From Nitrococcus mobilis Nb-231 (GTDB lineage Bacteria > Pseudomonadota > Gammaproteobacteria > Nitrococcales > Nitrococcaceae): a stretch of 64,000 nt of DNA. Numbering within the stretch: position 1 is the stretch's first letter; each line of letters begins with the position of its first letter. The stretch spans positions 2,024,541 through 2,088,540 of the forward strand of contig NZ_CH672427.1 of assembly GCF_000153205.1 (NCBI RefSeq), given 5' to 3'. The notes under the pieces were generated by a model. That model saw only the letters and a list, made by a program, of their open reading frames with translations, was not told where the DNA came from and did not search any database. Both the position numbers and the translations under genes were made by a program. Below, one piece after another: positions 1,973 through 44,109 of the stretch.

Positions 1973-3267
1973 ATCGTCCGCTAGCACACCCGTATTCGCC
2001 GGGACCGCCCGGTATGAGCATGACCGCCACCACGGACTATAGATCGAGCATCGCGACTGCTCCGATAAGCACGCGCAGTTGGCTGCTCTGCGCCTGGGCC
2101 GTACTCTGCACGCTTACACTCTCAGCGGTCAAAATCCCCATCGGCTTCGATTTGCGCCTCGGCCAAATTGCGCTCGCCGGCACTTTTTTTGTGCTGATCC
2201 TGCACGATATGCACCGTGAACAATTGCACTGGGGTGCTTTGCTCTCGGTCACAGGCTGCGGCCTAATGCTGAGCGCGCTCAGCCTGTTCTCCAATTACCC
2301 ACAGGTAAATGAGCTTACCTTCATCGTCAAGTACGTGCTGGTCTATCCGATGGCGTTCTATACCGGGATGAGGTTAGTATCACTGGTCCGAGCCGGGCGC
2401 ATGGCGGAATTGCTGGAGCTGGTGCTGCTGTTTGCCGCGGTGCTCGCCGTCGTGCTGTTTTTCCATCCGATTCCCGCGCTGATTCACGAGCGCCCCGCTT
2501 ATCTGTCCTATGGGCTCAAAGGCAGCTTCTGGGAGCAGGGGGAATTCGCCTTTTTCAGCGGGCTCTTCTTGCTCGCCGCCCTAGCCCTGCGCCTTGAGCA
2601 CCGGCACTGGCCGCAGCGACGCTGGCCCATAGCCCTACTCTACTTTTTCGTCATCGGCTGCGCGCTTGCGAGCTATAACAAAACGATCTGGATCGCGCTG
2701 ATAGGCGCTTGCCTGGCCGCCGCCCTCTTTTATCGGGGGCGCTCGCACATCAGCGGCGTAGCCCGGGGCTGGGCCCTGCGTCTGGCACTGATCGCCACTG
2801 TCGGCGCGGTTGCACTGGCCGCCTACAACGAATGGCTGCCCGCTGGCGAGAAATTGGTCACCGCCGCAATGCTCCAAAACAAATGGGATAACGAGCGGGG
2901 CGCCGCACTCCGAGTGGCCTGGGATTTGGTCATGCAGGCACCCTTGCTTGGCCACGGTTTCGGATTTGTCGAAGCCTATTTCGGTAATTATCCGTCCGAG
3001 ATCATTGGCCTTGGCAGCGGTTCCGCTCAGCTGTTCAATGTGTACCTGGATATCTGGCTGTCGGCCGGTGTCCCTGGACTCATCTACGCCCTCGGCATGC
3101 TTATTGTCGTATTCAGTGGCCGAAGTCTGTTCTCGGTGCTGGTGGTGAGCTACCTGTTCGTGTTCGCCAACGCCAACCCGGTTGGCCAACACGAATATTA
3201 CCATCTTTTTCTCGGCATGGCCTTTGCCGCGGGGCGCGACCCATCTCAGCCGGTGACTGCTTCTTAA
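1969..3267 (+). CDS. O-antigen ligase/polymerase-family membrane protein
   Basis: A 432-residue polytopic membrane protein with about 10-12 hydrophobic segments, beginning after a ~40-residue polar N-terminus. A long extracytoplasmic stretch before the last helices (around AAYNEWLPAGEKLVTAAML to LLGHGFGFVEAYF) has the layout of Wzy/WaaL-type proteins (Wzy_C), including the G-x-G-F element and an H-x-Y-Y motif near the C-terminus. These enzymes polymerise lipid-linked oligosaccharide repeats or transfer them to an acceptor in the periplasm. The ATG overlaps the preceding stop codon, implying translational coupling; the frame is also open further upstream, but that overlaps the previous gene. 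It is likely the polymerase of this locus; ligase activity cannot be excluded. Confidence 0.75.
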   Translation: MNRPLAHPYSPGPPGMSMTATTDYRSSIATAPISTRSWLLCAWAVLCTLTLSAVKIPIGFDLRLGQIALAGTFFVLILHDMHREQLHWGALLSVTGCGLMLSALSLFSNYPQVNELTFIVKYVLVYPMAFYTGMRLVSLVRAGRMAELLELVLLFAAVLAVVLFFHPIPALIHERPAYLSYGLKGSFWEQGEFAFFSGLFLLAALALRLEHRHWPQRRWPIALLYFFVIGCALASYNKTIWIALIGACLAAALFYRGRSHISGVARGWALRLALIATVGAVALAAYNEWLPAGEKLVTAAMLQNKWDNERGAALRVAWDLVMQAPLLGHGFGFVEAYFGNYPSEIIGLGSGSAQLFNVYLDIWLSAGVPGLIYALGMLIVVFSGRSLFSVLVVSYLFVFANANPVGQHEYYHLFLGMAFAAGRDPSQPVTAS

Positions 3268-3322
3268 CTACAGCACAGCACATGGGCTTTATATCAACGC
3301 ACTCTCGGCAAGGAATGTAAGC

Positions 3323-31428: not shown

Positions 31429-31863
31429 ATGCAAAAGGTCCAGCAGGGCTTCACACTGATCGAACTGATGATCGTGGTCGCGATCATCGGCATCCTGGCC
31501 GCCATCGCCATCCCGGCCTATCAGGACTACGTCGCCCGGTCGCAGATGACCGAGGCATTCAGTCTCGCGAGCGGCCAGAAGACCAACGTCGCCGAGATCT
31601 GGACGTCCGAAGGCTCGTTCAATAGCGCTGATAATGGGAAGTTTGGAATTCCGACCAACACCACTATCAATGGTAAGTATGTCAACAAAGTAGATGTCTT
31701 GAACGGCAAAATTACGGCAACCATGCAAACAGCTGGAGTGTCTTCTGGCATCAGTGGCAAAACACTGAGTCTGAGCCCGCAGACCCACAGCGGGTCGATC
31801 GAGTGGAAATGCTCCAGCAACGCAGCGCAAAAATACATACCCAAAAACTGCACCGGCACCTGA
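31429..31863 (+). CDS. pilA: Type IV major pilin
   Basis: A 144-residue type IVa pilin. The 7-residue leader MQKVQQG ends at the PilD cleavage/methylation site, before [20 protein letters not shown] with Glu5 of the mature protein. Then comes the alpha-helix [20 protein letters not shown], a variable centre, and the C-terminal disulfide loop between Cys in IEWKCSS and PKNC. It polymerises into the pilus for twitching, adhesion and DNA uptake. It is controlled by the sigma-54 promoter upstream and closed by a strong terminator, so it is transcribed alone. Confidence 0.97.
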
Positions 31864-31886
31864 TACTCAAATGTATTGAACAAGGG

Positions 31887-31921
31887 AAAGCGAACCCCTC
31901 TTCGAGAGGGGTTCGCTTTTT
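31887..31921 (+). terminator. Intrinsic terminator of pilA
   Basis: A 14-bp perfect stem with a UUCG tetraloop, from AAAGCGAACCCCTC to its complement at 31905-31919, ends in a T-run at 31917-31921. It lies 24 bp after the pilA stop. Confidence 0.95.
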
Positions 31922-31960
31922 AAGAGCCACCGGATTCGAACAGGCACAAAAAGGCACATT

Positions 31961-34096
31961 ATGCCGACAACCGATACCCTCGTCAGGGCCGCACTGTTCA
32001 GCGCGCTCCTAGCTCTGGCTTGGCTGGTCTATGCCCCCGGGCTCCACGGCCCCTTCCTGTTCGATGATTACGCCAACCTGCCGGCGCTGGGCGACTACGG
32101 AACGATCAATAACACCGAGCGCCTGATCAGCTACCTGACCAGCGGCATCGCCGGTCCCACTGGGCGGCCGCTCGCCCTGCTCAGCTTTTTGATCGACGAC
32201 AACAAATGGCCGACCAGCCCTGAGGCCTTTAAATACACCAGCACCTTGCTGCATCTCCTCAACGGGGTGCTGCTGATCTGGCTTTCCACCCGGCTGGCCC
32301 AAGCACTGGGGCATACCCGCAAACACGCCGAATGGATCGGCCTGCTCGCCGGTGGCCTCTGGCTGCTGCATCCGTTCTGGGTATCCACCACCCTCTACAT
32401 AGTTCAGCGCATGACGCTGCTCTGCGCCACCTTCGTGCTCGGCGGGCTACTGGCTTATGTACATGGGCGGCAGCGCCTGCTAGCGGGCACTCGGCAGCGG
32501 GCGTATCTATGGATGTCGGGCGGCATCGTTTTTGGGACGACGCTCGCTGTTCTGAGCAAGGAGAGCGGTGCCCTACTGCCACTTTTTGCCCTGCTGATCG
32601 AATGGCTGGTGTTCAGTCGAGCGGAAGAAAAGACCGTTAGGGAGACTCCGATTTATTTGTCACACCGGCGTAGACCGATGTCCAGCTTTTTGCTTTTTCT
32701 AGGTTCCGGCTTCGGCCGGAATGGTAAAAAAGCGATTAATCAAAGTTGCCATAGCATGTCGGACTCAACGTTCCGCTGGTGGCGGACCATCTTTCTCATA
32801 GCGCCCACAATCCTTCTGCTGGCTTATCTGGTCCATCAAACTCCCGGCGCGATCACCGGGGCCGCACACAGCCGCGATTTCACCTTGGCACAGCGCCTGC
32901 TGACCGAGCCGCGCATCGTCCTGACCTATATTAAGCATCTATTCCTGCCTGAGCCGTACACCGCCGGCCTGTTCCAGGACAGCATCACGGTATCGACCAA
33001 CCTCGTGCGCCCCTGGACGACCTTCCCGGCGATGGCGGTCATCGCGGGACTGCTTTTTTTGGGTTGGAAAGTCCGCCGCCGATACCCAAGCCTGGCGCTC
33101 GCTATTTTCTTCTTCTTCGCGGGCCATCTCATCGAATCCACGGTCGTGGCTCTCGAACTTTATTTCGAGCACCGCAGCTACACACCCGCGCTGTTTATTT
33201 TCCTGCCGCTTTCGATCTGGATCGTCACCGCAGCGGCACCGGCACCAAAGCTCCGTATCGAGCTGGCCGTCATGTTATTGGTCGTGATCAGCAGCCTGAC
33301 ATGGCTGCGCGCGGATCTGTGGGGGAATGCGGCCCAGCAAGGCCTCATGTGGGCCCAAAAAAACCCGGACTCCCCGCGTGCCCAAACTTACGCGGCATTG
33401 ATATTGGAACAGAAAGGGTCATACGAGACCGCCCAAGGGATTCTGAACAAGGCATCGGAAAAACATCCCGATTCGGTGATGATCGAGCTGAACCGATTAT
33501 CGCTGGCTTGCAACATAAACCGGGTGAAGCAGGAAGAGGTGATGCAAGCGGCCGAAGCTTTGCGCACCGACAAGCGCACGGAGCGCCTCGCCTATCAGAT
33601 TATCAATAAATTCATCCAAAAATTGGATCGCCAGCCCTGCACGGGCTTAGGCACAGCCCAGATCGAGCGGCTGATTCTTGCCGCACTAGCTAACCCGGCG
33701 CTTGCTCGCTCGGACGGAAGCCGCCAATCAATGCTCAATCTCTATGGGCTATTGGCGCTGAAAACCGGGCATCCCGAAACTGCAGCGCAGCGTTTCATTC
33801 AAGCGCTTCAGGTCAAGCCAAGGCCGGGTGCCGCACTGACCGAGGCCGCTCAAATGGGATCAGCCGGCCATCCATGCATGGGGCTCGCTATCCTGGCGGA
33901 ATACCATGCTGCCTCCACCCATCAGAGCGCCAGGCTCGGCTTCAGCATGGTCTCCCTCCACCGCTGGTGGTTGCAGCGAAGCAAGTATTACTCCAGTGAG
34001 TTCGACCGAATTTCAAGGCTGCTACGCCAAGATGCATTAAAAAGCGGCGGCAGTTGTGCCCAGGCATCTTTGGCAACAACTCGTAGGGCGCAATAG
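31961..34096 (+). CDS. GT-C-like membrane protein with C-terminal TPR region (candidate pilin glycosyltransferase)
   Basis: A 711-residue protein with ~11 membrane helices in residues 1-~440, then a soluble region with tetratricopeptide-like pairs (AQTYAALILEQKGSYETAQG, LYGLLALKTGHPETAAQRFI). The first periplasmic loop has FLFDDYANL, an acidic pair placed as in GT-C glycosyltransferases. A later block, LIESTVVALELYFEHRSYTP, is conserved in this group of TPR membrane proteins. Genes for pilin glycosylation often follow pilA, which suggests that role; this is inference. Residues ~226-263 are a polar, Arg/Ser-rich insert coded by a repeat element, probably in a loop. The ATG follows AAAAAGG. Confidence 0.7.
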   Translation: MPTTDTLVRAALFSALLALAWLVYAPGLHGPFLFDDYANLPALGDYGTINNTERLISYLTSGIAGPTGRPLALLSFLIDDNKWPTSPEAFKYTSTLLHLLNGVLLIWLSTRLAQALGHTRKHAEWIGLLAGGLWLLHPFWVSTTLYIVQRMTLLCATFVLGGLLAYVHGRQRLLAGTRQRAYLWMSGGIVFGTTLAVLSKESGALLPLFALLIEWLVFSRAEEKTVRETPIYLSHRRRPMSSFLLFLGSGFGRNGKKAINQSCHSMSDSTFRWWRTIFLIAPTILLLAYLVHQTPGAITGAAHSRDFTLAQRLLTEPRIVLTYIKHLFLPEPYTAGLFQDSITVSTNLVRPWTTFPAMAVIAGLLFLGWKVRRRYPSLALAIFFFFAGHLIESTVVALELYFEHRSYTPALFIFLPLSIWIVTAAAPAPKLRIELAVMLLVVISSLTWLRADLWGNAAQQGLMWAQKNPDSPRAQTYAALILEQKGSYETAQGILNKASEKHPDSVMIELNRLSLACNINRVKQEEVMQAAEALRTDKRTERLAYQIINKFIQKLDRQPCTGLGTAQIERLILAALANPALARSDGSRQSMLNLYGLLALKTGHPETAAQRFIQALQVKPRPGAALTEAAQMGSAGHPCMGLAILAEYHAASTHQSARLGFSMVSLHRWWLQRSKYYSSEFDRISRLLRQDALKSGGSCAQASLATTRRAQ
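32641..32750. repeat. MITE-like element inside the GT-C/TPR gene, frame kept open
   Basis: A 110-bp element with ends GGAGACTCCGATTTAT and, reversed, GGCAACTTTGATTAAT (11 of 16 identical). It contains a REP core at 32703 and is similar along both its ends to the element at 37097 read on the opposite strand. Flanks are TTAG and ATAG. The element plus a 4-bp duplication is 114 bp, exactly 38 codons, and has no stop in the host frame. Confidence 0.7.
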
Positions 34097-34173
34097 CGAA
34101 GCGTATTGCGCCGCATGCTCTGACAAACCCAACAACACGGTTTCCAATACCGACGATCACGGAATTACGCGCC

Positions 34174-34705
34174 ATGCCCGACTACCGCCGCGCCTGGAAT
34201 CCCGGTGGCATCTATTTCTTCACCATCACACTGTTACAGTGGTGCGGCAACGATCAGCTGGTCCGACATATCGATCAGCTACGGGATGCCATTCACGGGC
34301 TCGACGGATATACCCCTTCACCATCCACGACTGGCTGGTGTTATCTGATCATATGCATTGCGTACTGGAGCTGCCGGTCGACGATACGGACTTCGCGCTG
34401 CGTTGGCGGCTGATAAAAGCGGGCTTTGCCAAGCAGGTGCCGGTACGGGAGTGGCGCTCGGAGGTCTGAACGCGACGCGGCGAACGGGGCATATGGCGGC
34501 GACGGTTCTGGGAACACTTGGTCCGCGATGCAGTGGACTTTTCCACACATATGGATTATTGCACTTCAATCCAGTCAAGCATGGGCTGGTAGCCCGGGTG
34601 GCGGACTGGCCGTATTCGACGTTTCATCGGTGCGTGACGGCGGGGATGTACCCGGTCGACTGGGCAGGGAGCGCGGTGATTGATGAGGCAGGCTTTGGAG
34701 AATGA
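34174..34705 (+). pseudogene. REP-associated tyrosine transposase (RAYT), decayed
   Basis: The pieces of a Y1/RAYT transposase follow one another in three frames: MPDYRRAWNPGGIYFFTITL, then [20 protein letters not shown] (with the H-x-H metal motif), [32 protein letters not shown], and finally [20 protein letters not shown] with [16 protein letters not shown]. There is a frameshift near 34315, an in-frame TGA at 34467-34469, and another shift near 34560. The gene is dead. RAYTs mobilise REP palindromes, which fits the REP cores nearby. Confidence 0.88.
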
Positions 34706-34756
34706 GCTCGCGGAGAACATCCGGCGCATTACGGCCTTCGGCTTAATGCACCCACA

Positions 34757-35041
34757 TTAGTTCCCTTCTGGCGGCCATTGCCGCGAGGTATGCACAATCG
34801 CCAGCATTAGAATTGTTTAGCCGTCGATCGCGCAGATGAGGATATAGTGCGGATGAGCGATCAACTCTCGTGTCCCCGCTATTCGCCCGAGACGGCCCAT
34901 TTCGGAGTGATCTCCCAGACGCTCGGCGGCCACCCTAAGCTGGTCATCCAGCATGGCCGCCGCCCATGGATCGTCGGCCTCGATATGCTCATATATAGCG
35001 ATGCGATCGGCCAGCGCCGGTGTAGTCCATACCAGCTTCAC
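34757..35041 (-). pseudogene. ParE/RelE-family toxin with a premature stop
   Basis: From the GTG at 35041, 74 codons read MKLVWTTPALADRIAIYEHI and so on to HPHYILICAIDG, a ParE-type toxin, then TAA (34819-34817). The same frame continues for 19 more codons with TILMLAIVHTSRQWPPEGN, the normal ParE C-terminus, to a second stop at 34757. The full frame of 94 residues is the usual length. So a single nonsense change removes the last beta-strand and the conserved His/Arg end. The start overlaps the antitoxin stop (GTGA). Confidence 0.85.
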
Positions 35042-35322
35042 GCCTCGCTAGACCGGCGCCTCGAGACCGCACGCCGCTCGGCAAAATAGGCCTCGACCTC
35101 TTCACTCGGTGTAACCTGTCCCGCTGTTGCGGCGGCGATTCCCGCTTCGACTTTACGCCGAAATCAAGCATCATAGCCGGCCGCCGCTTCCTGCGCCCGC
35201 AAGTAATCGCGCATGAATGCGCGCAGCAGTTGCGCGCCGGTCCGGTCGTGGGCCTTTGCGGCCGTCGTAAAGGCGGACTTTAGCTCCTCTTCGACACAAA
35301 ATGTAAAGGTGGTCTCGGCCAT
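35038..35322 (-). pseudogene. Cognate RelB/ParD-type antitoxin with a premature stop
   Basis: From ATG at 35322 the frame reads MAETTFTFCVEEELKSAFTT with HDRTGAQLLRAFMRDYLRAQ, a ribbon-helix-helix antitoxin N-domain, then hits TGA at 35166-35164 after 52 codons. In the same frame FRRKVEAGIAAATAGQVTPS continues to a stop at 35038 that overlaps the toxin start. Related antitoxins usually have Trp before F-R at this point, so TGG to TGA is the likely change. The DNA-binding half could still be made without its toxin-binding half. Confidence 0.8.
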
Positions 35323-35517
35323 CTCCGATACCTCGTAGCTGTTGGGTAATCGTTATGCAATGTGACACACTACGAGTTGCTCATATAACCGGACATGGGC
35401 CTCAACTATCCCTTTACATGAATAAATAGCCTGTTCCCAAGCAAATATGAGCCCAGCGAGGGATTCTGTGCGATCTTTGGCAGAACGATAAATATTAAAG
35501 CGGTTTAATCGGAAGCC

Positions 35518-36441
35518 ATGAACATGGCGATGCACAGCAAACCGGTGCCGGCTCACCGAGCCGCGACGTTAGGCATCGTTCTCCCCGCCAAGAACGAAGC
35601 GGCCGCGCTGCCCGAGCTGCTCGACCGGCTGCGCGCGATCTATCCGAAGACGGAGATCCTGCTGATCGACGACGGCTCGAACGACGCTACGGCACGACTC
35701 GCGCGCGCACACGGCGCCCGCATAATCACCCATCCTTACAGCATGGGCAATGGTGCCGCCATAAAAGCCGGCGCCCGGGCGGTCAACGGCGAGATCATCG
35801 TCTCCCTGGATGCCGACGGTCAGCACCGGCCCGAGGACATCGAGAAGCTGCTCGCCAAGCTCGACGAGGGCTATGACATGGTCGTCGGAGCGCGGGATAA
35901 CGCCTCGCAGGCGAGCGTCGGACGCTCGCTCGCGAACCGGTTTTACAACGCCTTGGCGAGCCTGCTGGTGGGGCATCGCATCGCGGATCTCACCTCCGGC
36001 TTTCGGGCCGTACGGGCCGCCAAGTTTCGCGAGTTCTTGTACCTGCTGCCCAACGGCTTTTCTTATCCGACCACGATCACCATGGCCTTTTTCCGCGCCG
36101 GCTACAGCGTGGCCTATGTCCCCATCGAGACCGGCCAGCGCAACGGCCATGGCAGCCACATCCGACCGCTGCGGGACGGGGCGCGCTTTTTGCTGATCAT
36201 CCTCAAGGTCGCCACGTTATACTCGCCGCTCAAGCTGTTCGCGCCCGCCAGCGTACTGTTCTTCCTGCTCGGACTGGGAAATTACGGCTACACGTACGCC
36301 GTCGAGGGCCGGTTTACGAACATGAGCGCGCTGCTGTTCAGCGCTTCGGTCATCGTGTTTCTGATCGGTCTGCTATCAGAGCAGATCACGGCTCTTATGT
36401 ACAAAGACGGACGCTATTCGGATTCTCGGGAAAGCCATTGA
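35518..36441 (+). CDS. Family 2 glycosyltransferase with C-terminal membrane helices (DPM1/GtrB-like)
   Basis: A 307-residue protein. The GT-A domain has LGIVLPAKNEAAALPELLDR, ILLIDDGSNDAT, SLDADGQHRPED (DxD metal site) and DLTSGFRAVR. Two hydrophobic segments lie near 240-262 and 274-292. This layout belongs to polyprenyl-phosphate sugar transferases, which load mannose, glucose or similar onto undecaprenyl phosphate. Such a lipid-linked sugar could feed the GT-C protein 1.4 kb upstream, but that is inference. GGAAG stands just before the ATG. Confidence 0.88.
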   Translation: MNMAMHSKPVPAHRAATLGIVLPAKNEAAALPELLDRLRAIYPKTEILLIDDGSNDATARLARAHGARIITHPYSMGNGAAIKAGARAVNGEIIVSLDADGQHRPEDIEKLLAKLDEGYDMVVGARDNASQASVGRSLANRFYNALASLLVGHRIADLTSGFRAVRAAKFREFLYLLPNGFSYPTTITMAFFRAGYSVAYVPIETGQRNGHGSHIRPLRDGARFLLIILKVATLYSPLKLFAPASVLFFLLGLGNYGYTYAVEGRFTNMSALLFSASVIVFLIGLLSEQITALMYKDGRYSDSRESH

Positions 36442-36495
36442 GTTTCCTGAAGCAGCGGCACGCGAACCTTCTCGGATAAACCCTTCTCTTTTCGC

Positions 36496-36677
36496 TCATT
36501 CCGCCCATAACGCAGCGAGCGGAAGAGGCACGGCGTCGAACGGCTCGGCGGCCACCTCGGCCTCGTCAACGAAGCTCGCCAACAAAAGCCATTGGCCGCG
36601 TAGCGGAGCATTTTCGACATGCGATCGAGCTTCGCCGTGGCCGGTGAGAGGACCTCGCAGACCCAGCCCGGGCTCAC
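36496..36677 (-). pseudogene. Uma2/DUF820-family endonuclease remnant
   Basis: On the minus strand SPGWVCEVLSPATAKLDRMS with KMLRYA is the core of the Uma2 (PD-(D/E)XK-like) family. In another frame, after a deletion near 36600, LLLASFVDEAEVAAEPFDAV and PLPLAALWAE give the normal C-terminus and a stop at 36498-36496. The central catalytic part between these blocks and the N-terminus are missing. Confidence 0.75.
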
Positions 36678-36720
36678 TTCGAATCAGGCGGTCGCCGGCG
36701 GCGCTTAGCGGGGGGGGGCG

Positions 36721-36860
36721 GCGCGCCCCACGAACTCCGACCTGACCTTTCAGATCAAGGGAACCAGCACCACGAGCACCGTCCAGAGCCGATTGCCGTG
36801 GCGCTCTGGGGTCTTGGGTTGCTCGGCCTCAGCGCAGGAGCAAGACGCCGGCACCGTTGA
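36721..36860 (+). pseudogene. C-terminal remnant of a PEP-CTERM (exosortase-sorted) protein
   Basis: One frame ends TNSDLTFQIKGTSTTSTV at 36783. One base out of phase the next frame reads PEPIAVALWGLGLLGLSAG followed by ARRRHR and a TGA at 36858-36860. PEP, a hydrophobic helix and a terminal Arg cluster make a textbook PEP-CTERM sorting signal, and the Thr/Ser-rich stretch before it is also typical. Loss of one C at the junction would explain the shift. No start or body of the gene remains; a run of nine Gs lies at its left edge. Confidence 0.75.
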
Positions 36861-37096
36861 GATCCATTGCAGCAAAGCTCCGTTGGCCTCGCCAGAAACG
36901 GCAAGGCCTGCTTCCATATCGCCCGGTACGGCTGTCATGGAACCTTCAAAACCGCTTCACGGAAAGCCCCAGTGCCTGGCGCTCAGCGCCGCACGTGCGC
37001 AATCGCCCCGCTCGTGAAGCCTGGCTACGCGCCGCCGGGTTGCTGCGGCATATTACGCTACAATCGGATTAACGCTACATCAATTATTCAAATTAA

Positions 37097-37276
37097 GGAA
37101 ACTCTGATCAATCACGTTCTCATCATTCCGGCGAAAGCCGGACAAATCCGTAGGAACGGCTTTGAACAGCTTCAGCTGGCTCAGAGGGCGCAAACCAGGG
37201 AAGGTTTACGTAATTCAGTCAAATCAATAATCTGGACACCGGCCTTCTCTGGTGTGACGAATAAATCAGAGGCTCC
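37097..37276. repeat. MITE-like element (180 bp) with TTAA flanks
   Basis: The ends GGAAACTCTGATCAAT and, reversed, GGAGCCTCTGATTTAT match at 12 of 16 positions and are flanked on both sides by TTAA (37093-37096, 37277-37280). The right end matches the left end of the IS5-family element (42933) at 15 of 18 positions. A REP core CCGGC-GAAA-GCCGG lies at 37128-37141. Its ends and REP part are similar to the element at 32641. Confidence 0.75.
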
Positions 37277-37348
37277 TTAAAAAACGAGAGCGACAGGCCA
37301 TCTTGCAACTATGGCGAGATGAGGCGAGCAAGCATTTGAGTTTAGGAC

Positions 37349-39322
37349 ATGCAAAGGATGAACATCCATTCTCGCCTCATCAGCGCAATTGCCGTAGCAA
37401 TAACAGCGGGGGTACTAGTAAGCCACGGCGTTTGGGAGCTCAGCGTGGCGAGCAAGCCCACCTCCAGCATAGGCGCGCTACTTGAGCTGTTCGTCGCCGT
37501 GGTGCTGGCGGCCTGGTCATGGTACCAGCTGCGTCATACGCAGCATGCTCTTCCCACAACTCGCGTATCCCTTCTGACACTTCCGGCCCCACGTCTGGGT
37601 TTCGCCTGGATCAACGTCAAGGCGCACACGCAACTCGATGAAAATCCCTGCTACCATGCCATGATCCTCGACAGCATGGCCGACGCCGTTTTCATCATCG
37701 ATCATGGTTTTCGGATCCTGGACTGCAACCGAGCCGCCGAGGCCCTGCTCGGTCGAGATAACGCCGAGCTCAAGGGAATCGCTCTGAACCAACTGCTGCG
37801 GGCACAGCAGGTCGATACCCTGCTCAAAGCGATCGATACCACAGTCACGCATACCGGGCGCTGGCAAGGCGAACTCTGCTTTGGCAACAGCCAAGGCATC
37901 TTGACGGAAGCCATTTTCGTGCCGCTAATGGATAGCAGCACCAAGCGACAGGGCACACTGCTTGGCGTGGTACGGGACATCCGCGAGCGCAAGGCGGCCG
38001 AAACCCACCTCGGCTATGCAGCCAATTACGATCCGTTGACCGCACTGCCGAATCGATCGCTCTTCCGCGATCGACTCGATCAAGTCTTAGCCGACGCCAG
38101 TTGGCAGCGGCGACAAATAGCACTGCATCTCATCGATCTGGACAATTTCAAACTGATCAATGAGGGGCTCGGTCACGCGCAGGGCGATCAAGTTCTGCAG
38201 AGAATCGCACAGCGGCTCGGCGCGGCGGTGCATCGGAGTGATACCCTGGCCAGGGTCGGGGGCGACAAGTTCGCCCTCATACAAACGAGCCTGCACCGCG
38301 TCGAGCAGTCCGCTTTCCGCGCCCAACACCTACTGGATGTAGTCGAACCAACCCTGACCATAGCGGGTGAACGCGAGCTCAACGTCACCGCCAGCATCGG
38401 CATAGCCCTATACCCCGAGAACGGGCTCGCTACCGAGGAACTCACTCACAATGCCGAGCTCGCTCTCTCCCGCGCCAAGCTGGAGGGGCGTAATGCTTAT
38501 TGCTTCTTCGTCCGCGGCATGGAAGAGGAAATGCGGGTGCGCTGCGCGCTCGAGCACGATTTGGGGCAGGCCTTAACGCACGATGAATTTCTGTTCCACT
38601 ACCAGCCTCAGGTGGAACTGACGACTGGACGCGTAATCGGCTGCGAGGCATTGATTCGCTGGCACCACCCAAAGTATGGCCTGCTCTATCCGAGCCGATT
38701 CATCTCCATGGCGGAAGAGAGCGGCGCCATCATCCCTCTCGGCGAGTGGAGCTTGCGAGAAGTTTGCCGGCAACTCAAAGTCTGGCAACGGGAAGGGCTG
38801 CCGATCGGGCACATCGCCGTGAACCTTTCCGCCGTGCAGTTCCGCTACCCGGAGTTCGCCTCCCTAGTCGATCAGGTCTTGCGAGATGCCTCAGTCGACC
38901 CCGCCTGCCTGGAGCTCGAGGTCACCGAGTCGCTCGCCATGGAGAACCCCGAGCTAGCGGCTAGCCTTGTCGCTCAGCTCAAGCGGCTGGGCGTGAAACT
39001 GGCAATCGACGATTTCGGCGCCGGTTATTCATCACTGGGCTACCTGAAACGCTTCCCCGTACAAATGCTCAAGATCGACCGCTCCCTCATCGACGAGCTT
39101 GCTACCAACGGCTGCGACGCCGCGATAACTATAGCCGTCATCGAACTGGGCCATAGCCTCGACATGCACGTGCTGGCCGAGGGCATCGAGACCCGGGAGC
39201 AACTTGATTTTCTGCGCCGCCATCACTGCGATTTCGGCCAGGGCACCTCCTTTGCGGCCGCGATGCCGGCCGGCGAATTCGCGGCCTGCGTAAGGCGGTT
39301 CGCCGTAGGCGATCCGCTCTGA
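37349..39322 (+). CDS. PAS-GGDEF-EAL cyclic-di-GMP protein with degenerate GGDEF
   Basis: A 657-residue protein with two N-terminal hydrophobic segments (residues ~8-30 and ~42-60), a PAS domain (ILDSMADAVFIIDHGFRILD) and a GGDEF domain from YDPLTALPNRSLFRDRL, whose signature is changed to VGGDKFALI. A complete EAL domain follows with GCEALIRWHHPKYGL, VNLSAVQFRYPE, LEVTESLAMENPELA, IDDFGAGYSSLGYLKRFPVQ and HVLAEGIETREQL. The Glu to Lys change at the metal/catalytic site should abolish cyclase activity, while the EAL residues look intact. So it is probably a membrane phosphodiesterase, perhaps regulated by GTP at the dead GGDEF domain. It stands alone. Confidence 0.92.
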   Translation: MQRMNIHSRLISAIAVAITAGVLVSHGVWELSVASKPTSSIGALLELFVAVVLAAWSWYQLRHTQHALPTTRVSLLTLPAPRLGFAWINVKAHTQLDENPCYHAMILDSMADAVFIIDHGFRILDCNRAAEALLGRDNAELKGIALNQLLRAQQVDTLLKAIDTTVTHTGRWQGELCFGNSQGILTEAIFVPLMDSSTKRQGTLLGVVRDIRERKAAETHLGYAANYDPLTALPNRSLFRDRLDQVLADASWQRRQIALHLIDLDNFKLINEGLGHAQGDQVLQRIAQRLGAAVHRSDTLARVGGDKFALIQTSLHRVEQSAFRAQHLLDVVEPTLTIAGERELNVTASIGIALYPENGLATEELTHNAELALSRAKLEGRNAYCFFVRGMEEEMRVRCALEHDLGQALTHDEFLFHYQPQVELTTGRVIGCEALIRWHHPKYGLLYPSRFISMAEESGAIIPLGEWSLREVCRQLKVWQREGLPIGHIAVNLSAVQFRYPEFASLVDQVLRDASVDPACLELEVTESLAMENPELAASLVAQLKRLGVKLAIDDFGAGYSSLGYLKRFPVQMLKIDRSLIDELATNGCDAAITIAVIELGHSLDMHVLAEGIETREQLDFLRRHHCDFGQGTSFAAAMPAGEFAACVRRFAVGDPL

Positions 39323-42932: not shown

Positions 42933-44109
42933 GGAGACTCTGAACTATTCCCGGCCACGCCAGTATAATTGCGGCATTGCCACGGACCCAGGCGGAACCG
43001 ATGAAACAAACCACCTTTGCTTCGATGAGTTTTGCGGCCAAGAAGCGGCGCACGCGCCGGGAGAAGTTTCTCGCCGAGAGGGAGCAGGTGGTGCCTTGGG
43101 CAAAACTGGTGGCGCTCATTGAGCCGCACTACCCCAAGGCGGGCCGGCGTGGCCGCCCGCCGATGCCGCTTGAGTCGATGCTGCGTATTTATTTCATGCA
43201 GCAGTGGTACGCGCTCTCCGACCCGGCCATGGAGGATGCGCTCTATGAGATCGAGTCGATGCGCCGCTTCGCCGGGCTTGAGCTCATCGACGACGCGCTG
43301 CCCGACGAGACCACGATTTTGAAGTTTCGCCGCCTGCTGGAGCGCCACGGCCTGACTGCCCAGATGATGAACGTAATCCACGACGTGCTCGCCGAGCGCG
43401 GGGCGCTGCTCAAGGGCGGCACTATGGTCGATGCCACGATTGTGCACGCTCCGGCCTCGACGAAGAACAAGGCGCGCCGGCGCGACCCGCAGATGCACCA
43501 GACGCGGAAGGGCAATCAGTGGTATTTCGGCATGAAGATCCACGTGGGGGCCGATGTCAACAGCGGCCTTGCTCACACGGTTTCGGTGACTGCAGCCAAC
43601 GCCTCGGACATCAGCCAATTGCCGCGCCTGCTGCGCGAGGACGACCGCGCGGTCTTTGGTGATAAGGGCTACGTCGATAACACCCTTAAGCGCGCGGCGC
43701 GCCGGGCGGGTGTCTACTGGGGCGTGTCCTTGAAGGCAAGCTCCAAGCACAAACTCACCGGTGCGAACAAGCGCACCAACCGCAAGCGCTCCTCGGTCCG
43801 TGCCCGGGTGGAGCACATTTTCCGGGTGATCAAGCGCCAATTCGGTTACACCAAGGTGCGCTACAAGGGGCTTGCCAAGAACGCCGCCCAGGTGTTCACG
43901 CTGATCGGCCTGACGAATCTGTATCTGGTGAGGAGGCAACTGATGACGAGCTGACAGGCAAACTGCGCCTGCTTGCTCCGAAAAGGGGTTCAGCGGCGCC
44001 AAACGGCCCCGTAAATCAGCACTCGGCGGCGGGAAACCGAGCATTTTTACCCTTCCTCTCGTCAGAGACGAATGCGTTTGACTTCAGCTCGAATAGTTCA
44101 GACGTTCCC
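42933..44109 (+). mobile_element. IS5-family insertion sequence (1177 bp)
   Basis: Terminal repeats are GGAGACTCTGAACTATTC at 42933-42950 and, reversed, GGGAACGTCTGAACTATTC at 44091-44109; the inner 12 bases are identical. TAT flanks both sides (42930-42932, 44110-44112), a TNA-type 3-bp duplication known in IS5 subgroups. One intact transposase fills most of the element. Confidence 0.88.
43001..43954 (+). CDS. IS5-family transposase, apparently intact
   Basis: A 317-residue DDE transposase. The N-terminal IS5 domain has VALIEPHYPKAGRRGRPPMP and MLRIYFMQQWYALSDPAMED. The catalytic residues are in GGTMVDATIVHAP (Asp), RAVFGDKGYVDN (Asp) and VRARVEHIFRVIKRQFGY (Glu), followed by the family YKGLAKNAAQVFTLIGLTNL end. 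The ATG at 43001 (MKQTTFASMSF) is preferred to an in-frame start 24 nt upstream. No frameshift is seen, so it could be active and could also move the short elements with similar ends elsewhere in the window. Confidence 0.95.
   Translation: MKQTTFASMSFAAKKRRTRREKFLAEREQVVPWAKLVALIEPHYPKAGRRGRPPMPLESMLRIYFMQQWYALSDPAMEDALYEIESMRRFAGLELIDDALPDETTILKFRRLLERHGLTAQMMNVIHDVLAERGALLKGGTMVDATIVHAPASTKNKARRRDPQMHQTRKGNQWYFGMKIHVGADVNSGLAHTVSVTAANASDISQLPRLLREDDRAVFGDKGYVDNTLKRAARRAGVYWGVSLKASSKHKLTGANKRTNRKRSSVRARVEHIFRVIKRQFGYTKVRYKGLAKNAAQVFTLIGLTNLYLVRRQLMTS

Follow-up and report, generated by a model that had tools for sequence, protein, structure and literature searches.

A probable IS5-type miniature element with a REP-pair core, read in frame within a membrane protein gene of Nitrococcus mobilis Nb-231

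How can a gene for a conserved membrane protein carry a stretch of repetitive DNA in its middle and still be open from its start to its stop codon? This question is raised by a locus in a 64,000-nucleotide stretch of the genome of Nitrococcus mobilis Nb-231 (hereafter, the window), in which an earlier note, made from the letters alone, had recognized a short mobile element "domesticated" as codons of a glycosyltransferase-like protein. Our best explanation, to which we assign a probability of about 0.82, is that the insert is a non-autonomous IS5-type MITE with a REP pair as its core, which is tolerated in a loop that serves as a recurrent landing site. At the level of sequence, the analysis establishes the family of the element, its ends, its duplication and its frame, as well as its absence from homologues, the presence of other inserts in the same loop and a resident insertion sequence (IS) with matching ends. 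The features concerned are collected in Table 1.

Table 1. Features of the locus and related sequences; positions refer to the window unless a locus is named.
Feature	Position	Strand	Remarks
Gene for a type IV pilin, immediately 5' of the host gene	31429..31863	+	Pfam Pilin E 6e-29
Host gene, 711 aa: predicted GT-C-fold membrane domain (about 1-460) and TPR tail	31961..34096	+	
Left target-site duplication, TTAG	32637..32640	.	
MITE, class A short form, 110 bp	32641..32750	+	Residues 226-263 together with the 4-bp duplication
Left terminal inverted repeat	32641..32658	+	Agrees at 14/18 with the resident IS (left end)
First REP-like palindrome, degenerate	32659..32684	+	Consensus CGTC-ACACCGGC-GAAG-GCCGGTGT-CCA
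Second REP-like palindrome, TTCCGG-CTTCGG-CCGGAA	32704..32721	.	Core of the predicted hairpin
Degenerate right terminal inverted repeat	32733..32750	-	Agrees at 10/18 with the resident IS (left end)
Right target-site duplication, ATAG, differing at one position	32751..32754	.	
Long form of the MITE family, 180 bp, flanked left and right by TTAA	37097..37276	-	
IS5-family insertion sequence, 1176 bp, CTAT on both sides	42933..44108	+	One of 10 near-identical copies; probable mobiliser
IS5-family transposase, from the first ATG	43001..43954	+	NCBIfam transpos_IS5_4 E 5e-104; DDE_Tnp_1, DUF772
Contig ends of G002 with a related IS5-type IS	L244, L248, L252, L259, L262, L265		
Repeat-like peptides in other loops of the protein family	L162:5239-5304; L170:5131-5196; L198:4870-4959		

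The host gene is a single open reading frame from start to stop. In the sequence libraries (Pfam and NCBIfam), as in a sequence search of the PDB, its product is matched over the TPR tail only. The AlphaFold model of the protein, based on 45 sequences, has a mean pLDDT of 89 and a pTM of 0.90, and VIA-align of the membrane domain gave a Z score of 19.0 (rmsd 4.7, 325 residues) with the yeast STT3-containing OST chain, 17.8 with the Pmt complex and 15.8 with ArnT; Foldseek against the PDB ranked TPR proteins first and returned weak GT-C matches. The glycosyltransferase-like nature that had been proposed for this membrane protein thus agrees with a GT-C fold in the predicted structure (Z 15-19). 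Because the model is GT-C-like, a pilin gene adjoins the host gene and a pilin-type start motif is present within the flanks of 50 of the 80 named homologue loci, the host protein is plausibly a pilin-linked glycosyltransferase. In the model, residues 231-270 form a block with a pLDDT of about 50-58 between two helices (201-228 and 269-292) that exceed 90. The membrane topology of GT-C enzymes is known, and this topology, together with the order of the helices, would place the loop that holds the insert in the cytosol, between two intact membrane helices.

Two further REP-related features lie at the 3' end of the gene. A GTAG-tagged REP palindrome (GTAG-GGCGCAATAGCGAAGCGTATTGCGCC, 34083-34112) overlaps the end of the gene and provides its stop codon TAG; it has one exact site in the window, where none is expected by chance. 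Directly 3' of the host gene (34056-34705) lies a frameshifted remnant of a REP-associated tyrosine transposase (RAYT), which matches NCBIfam REP_Tyr_transpos in two ORFs (E 2.5e-13 and 4e-6), both below the curated cut-off.

The element itself begins with GGAGACTCC and ends with AAGTTGCC. The earlier note had delimited it as 110 bp with a 4-bp flank, and both the coordinates and the arithmetic proved exact, the flanks being TTAG and ATAG: the resulting 114 bp correspond to 38 in-frame codons without a stop, through which the 711-aa frame stays open. The encoded residues 226-263, VRETPIYLSHRRRPMSSFLLFLGSGFGRNGKKAINQSC, contain seven K/R against one D/E, in line with the basic loop that had been described. 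That the segment is a repeat was borne out by a search of its own genome (3.62 Mb, 9 contigs), which gave 14 matches at E<=10, with seven below 1e-5, including full-length relatives at C1:2989413 (76%, E 9e-15) and C1:732405 (77%, E 2e-14). The similarity claimed with the long-form element at 37 kb, on the opposite strand, is also real (80% over 60 nt and 78% over 49 nt), and this long form has 22 matches in the genome at E<=1. With E values down to 1e-14, a chance resemblance of the copies can be ruled out, as can a known RNA family, since the region 31800-37400 holds no Rfam match at gathering score.

A consensus of this family, which we named class A, was built from 13 other short copies in four genomes of the genus. 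It is 110 bp long and consists of the terminal inverted repeats GGAGCATCTGATTTATTC and GGAACCTCTGATCAATTA around two inverted palindromes that form a head-to-head pair with the structure CGTC-stem-4-base loop-stem-CCA. Judged by eye, these consensus cores fit the CGTC class of REPs (CGTC tag, stem of 8-9 bp, loop of 4-5 bases, CCA tail); the core of the window copy is degenerate, with a TGTC tag and a changed stem. The degenerate terminal repeats and the REP core noticed before are therefore both present, as MITE ends around REP palindromes. Other class A copies are flanked by the 4-bp duplications TTAA/TTAA (the 37-kb copy) and TTAG/TTAG and CTCA/CTCA (two others). The window element is 110 bp long, contains no transposase and has dispersed copies, and, as terminal inverted repeats and 4-bp duplications surround the REP pair, we consider it to be a MITE. 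A second family in the same genomes, class B, is 131 bp long with ends GGGAACCTCGAAT... and duplications TAAT/TAAT and AAAT/AAAT in its two best-delimited copies. Class B has matches in five of five genomes, and class A in four of eight, all four of the genus. A scan of the transposase loci L207-L236 revealed no class B terminal repeat next to them.

A candidate for the enzyme that moved the class A element is encoded in the window itself. The resident IS5-family IS has 10 copies in the genome that are 98.7-100% identical over about 1.18 kb, and nine of these 10 lie between two identical 4-bp sequences, in most cases TTAG or TTAA. The agreement of its left end with that of the window element (Table 1) has a binomial probability of 4e-6. 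The ends of the class A consensus agree with the resident IS at 13-14 of 18 positions and with a related IS in another genome, G002, at 15-16 of 18, the right end of the consensus matching an end of this G002 IS at 16 of 18. The right end of the window copy agrees with the IS ends at only 9-11 of 18 positions, and with its changed target duplication and degenerate terminal repeat it constitutes weak evidence. The searches made revealed no similarity between the interiors of the IS and of the element, which have only their ends in common. From these matches we infer that the resident IS5-family IS moved the window element. Mobilisation by another enzyme, for instance a RAYT, seems very improbable, since the terminal inverted repeats and 4-bp duplications match the resident IS, as in DDE transposition. 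To our knowledge, RAYT elements are not expected to generate this combination. In favour of such an enzyme are the RAYT remnant that lies 3' of the host gene and the report in PMC3733652 that CGTC REPs are without a dedicated transposase. Two observations concern IS elements in the genus more generally. DDE_Tnp_1 has 63 matches in the 3.62-Mb genome of N. mobilis Nb-231 (G000) versus 1-13 in four genus relatives, and many contig ends of G002 seem to be assembly breaks caused by its related IS5-type IS, whose ends are GGAACATCTGATCAATTC.

Insertion of such an element would not by itself close a reading frame. Nine of the 14 aligned copies, including that of the window, are 110 bp long, and this standard length plus the duplication (110+4 = 114 = 3 x 38) is divisible by three. 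Moreover, two of the six frames of the family consensus are free of stops, and the host gene uses one of these two. These properties explain why the gene stayed open, and selection for an open frame need not be assumed; a frame rescued by selection was ruled out on the same grounds. Differences from the consensus number 10 synonymous and 17 non-synonymous in the window copy, against 56 and 128 in the pooled remaining 13 copies, scored in the same frame, which is meaningless for them (random expectation 24% synonymous). Thus, the substitutions in the window copy resemble those in other copies and give no clear sign of constraint, and weak constraint may lie behind the slight synonymous excess (10/27 versus 56/184). 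The predicted RNA hairpin of the element is somewhat more stable than those of shuffled sequences (z -2.2; 6 of 200 shuffles are as stable), and therefore a role of the insert at the RNA level is also possible.

Next to its own copies, the homologues of the host protein provide the second context in which the insert can be viewed. Matches to the host protein are present in 35 of the 144 genomes searched, its own included. The alignment comprises the window protein and 163 ORFs of at least 300 codons with blastp E<=1e-15, taken from 109 loci. Some of these loci have paralogues, and two of them (L038 and L127) are one contig. The loop between E214 and P282 measures 69 aa in the window protein, 68 aa in G003 and 23-32 aa in 129 of the 164 rows. 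Residues 226-263 are missing from the homologues, as the earlier note had predicted for a non-native segment, which rules out native coding sequence, and none of the homologues examined, unrelated species included, carries the same insert. The window element is thus an in-frame insertion that homologues lack, as would be the case for an element of the type of the Rickettsia palindromic elements (RPEs) discussed below.

The nearest relative, G003 (Nitrococcus sp. MAG isolate 48_S62), has a host protein that is 74-75% identical, with its conserved motifs kept, and carries a class B element of 131 bp at the same spot, within about 12 bp of the window insert. Another class B element in this genome (L038:910-1017) follows the pilin gene and precedes the start codon of the host-gene orthologue. 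Identity is 0.755 between the window insert and class A, and 0.69-0.70 between the G003 insert and class B; the two inserts are 0.553 identical in the same orientation and 0.577 in the opposite one, and we read the higher opposite-orientation score as quasi-symmetry of both elements.

These comparisons bear on what the insert does for its host. True domestication would mean that the insert provides a selected function, either as a basic cytosolic loop or as an mRNA hairpin in the coding region, and the basic peptide, the hairpin score and the in-frame element kept at this place by a second species would agree with it. Against this, the substitution pattern resembles that of other copies, the peptide occurs in none of the homologues examined, the loop is modelled with low confidence, and the element in G003, the closest orthologue, belongs to another family and is only 55% identical. 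We therefore consider domestication very unlikely, and this part of the earlier claim did not stand; we infer instead that the insert is tolerated rather than put to use, with a neutral effect. Equally unlikely is that the host gene is decaying and that the insert persists because the protein is dispensable. The degenerate RAYT directly downstream and the same-genus genome G001, in which no match to the host protein was found, could be taken to point that way, but the remainder of the 711-aa frame is open and as similar to G003 as stated above, conserved motifs are retained, and the protein is modelled with high confidence. The long host protein is presumably made and working.

Large inserts in this loop are not restricted to Nitrococcus. 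Loops of at least 48 aa were found at nine distinct loci, and seven of them were tested for dispersed copies (L154 and L198 were left out, the loop peptide of L198 being much like that of L175). Dispersed repeats make up part of the loop in five of these seven: the window protein, G003, and the more distant homologues L149 (six matches, five elsewhere in the genome), L175 (14 matches, 13 elsewhere) and L136 (nine matches, seven on other contigs), whose loop repeats are unrelated. The loop inserts at L162 and L130 are single copy in their own genomes, so that a long loop is not always a repeat. In L149 (Gammaproteobacteria MAG REEB218), a long dispersed palindrome at 3119-3289, read as CEGRASDP...GLLRRFASRNDG, brings the loop to 87 aa. 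Inserts of at least 14 aa also occur near residues 116, 179 and 427, in further loops of the family, and the E214-P282 loop is therefore one of several permissive ones; it holds the largest repeat-derived inserts seen in these homologues. Repeat-like peptides such as APSPASGGGLGR occur in family loops near the residues corresponding to 116 and 179 of the window protein.

How exceptional is an intragenic copy? We merged 63 rows to 59 distinct element sites in five genomes; only sites with a locus and a listed match were counted, and further matches without a locus or with a weaker E value were left out. An ORF of at least 50 codons is present on both sides of the element at 10 of the 59 sites. 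Among the eight of these 10 that were Pfam-scanned (all but L075 and L085), homologues support a position well inside a protein gene only for the window gene and its G003 orthologue; at L071 and L073 a Pfam domain lies 3' of the element, and at L017, L080, L084 and L091 the ORFs around it have no Pfam match. For N. mobilis Nb-231 itself, this amounts to one supported intragenic copy among the 19 element sites examined. Random sampling would hardly have left both survivors in one loop of one gene, which implies either that this loop is very permissive or that one old insertion was later overwritten. A single ancestral Nitrococcus insertion, replaced in one species through recombination with another family, would account for the two inserts lying within about 12 bp of each other and for their being the only supported cases among the 59 sites. 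Nevertheless, this scenario is unlikely: each insert is closer to its own class than to the other insert, their terminal repeats and lengths (110 versus 131 bp) differ, and the window copy keeps a near-intact duplication of its own. As far as the sequences can tell, two independent insertions are favoured over one that was overwritten.

According to the model of a tolerated MITE, head-to-head CGTC-class REP palindromes would form the core of an IS5-type miniature transposon. This transposon would have entered the gene for a pilin-linked GT-C/TPR membrane protein and duplicated 4 bp of the target in doing so. Given a length of 114 bp, or 38 codons, and a stop-free consensus frame, the insertion itself would have left the gene open. 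The added residues would form a flexible and tolerated cytosolic loop between two membrane helices, and in other species, different and unrelated palindromic repeats would have entered the same loop.

Several known systems resemble this one in part. RPEs, according to the review PMC10969869 (citing Ogata 2000, 2002), are palindromic repeats that lie in frame in unrelated protein genes. The window element is likewise a short palindromic mobile repeat that is read in frame and itself has an open frame. It differs in that it resides in a gammaproteobacterium, with visible IS5-type ends and a 4-bp duplication and with an IS with matching ends in the same genome, and in that just one intragenic copy is supported among the 19 sites examined in its genome. 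By analogy, the window element may be said to work like an RPE; the likeness is one of behaviour. In PMC3733652, CGTC-tagged REPs are described as head-to-head dimers, some of them intragenic, and different REPs are reported at about the same recB site in two Xanthomonas species. The Nitrococcus consensus cores fit the CGTC type (CGTC, 8-bp stem, 4-base loop, CCA) and also form dimers; but while that paper reports no dedicated transposase for CGTC REPs, IS5-type ends and target duplications enclose the Nitrococcus dimer. With IS5-family MITEs the window element shares ends related to those of a full-length IS in its own genome and 4-bp duplications rich in TTAG/TTAA, whereas its interior is a REP dimer. 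Finally, the Coxiella elements QMITE1/2 are MITEs that add basic peptides to genes and, according to PMC5896051, strike functional genes at their 3' ends; addition of a basic peptide is common to both, but the window insert is in the middle of a conserved membrane protein. We found no paper on the Nitrococcus elements in the literature searched, where most subscription papers fall outside coverage. On our best reading, the system is close to RPEs and intragenic CGTC REPs, to which it adds an IS5-type mobilisation route.

A more general proposal, which we put forward tentatively, is that in Nitrococcus CGTC REP dimers travel inside frame-neutral IS5-type MITEs, and that these and other palindromes persist preferentially in one cytosolic loop of pilin-linked GT-C/TPR enzymes, a recurrent natural site across Gammaproteobacteria. 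The locus offers a clear natural case, outside Rickettsia, of a mobile palindrome turned into protein sequence with the probable mobilising enzyme encoded in the same genome. The presence of this probable mobiliser makes the spread of CGTC-type REPs directly testable. The case also suggests that protein insertions may survive through the combination of a frame-neutral element length and a permissive loop, without the gain of a new function.
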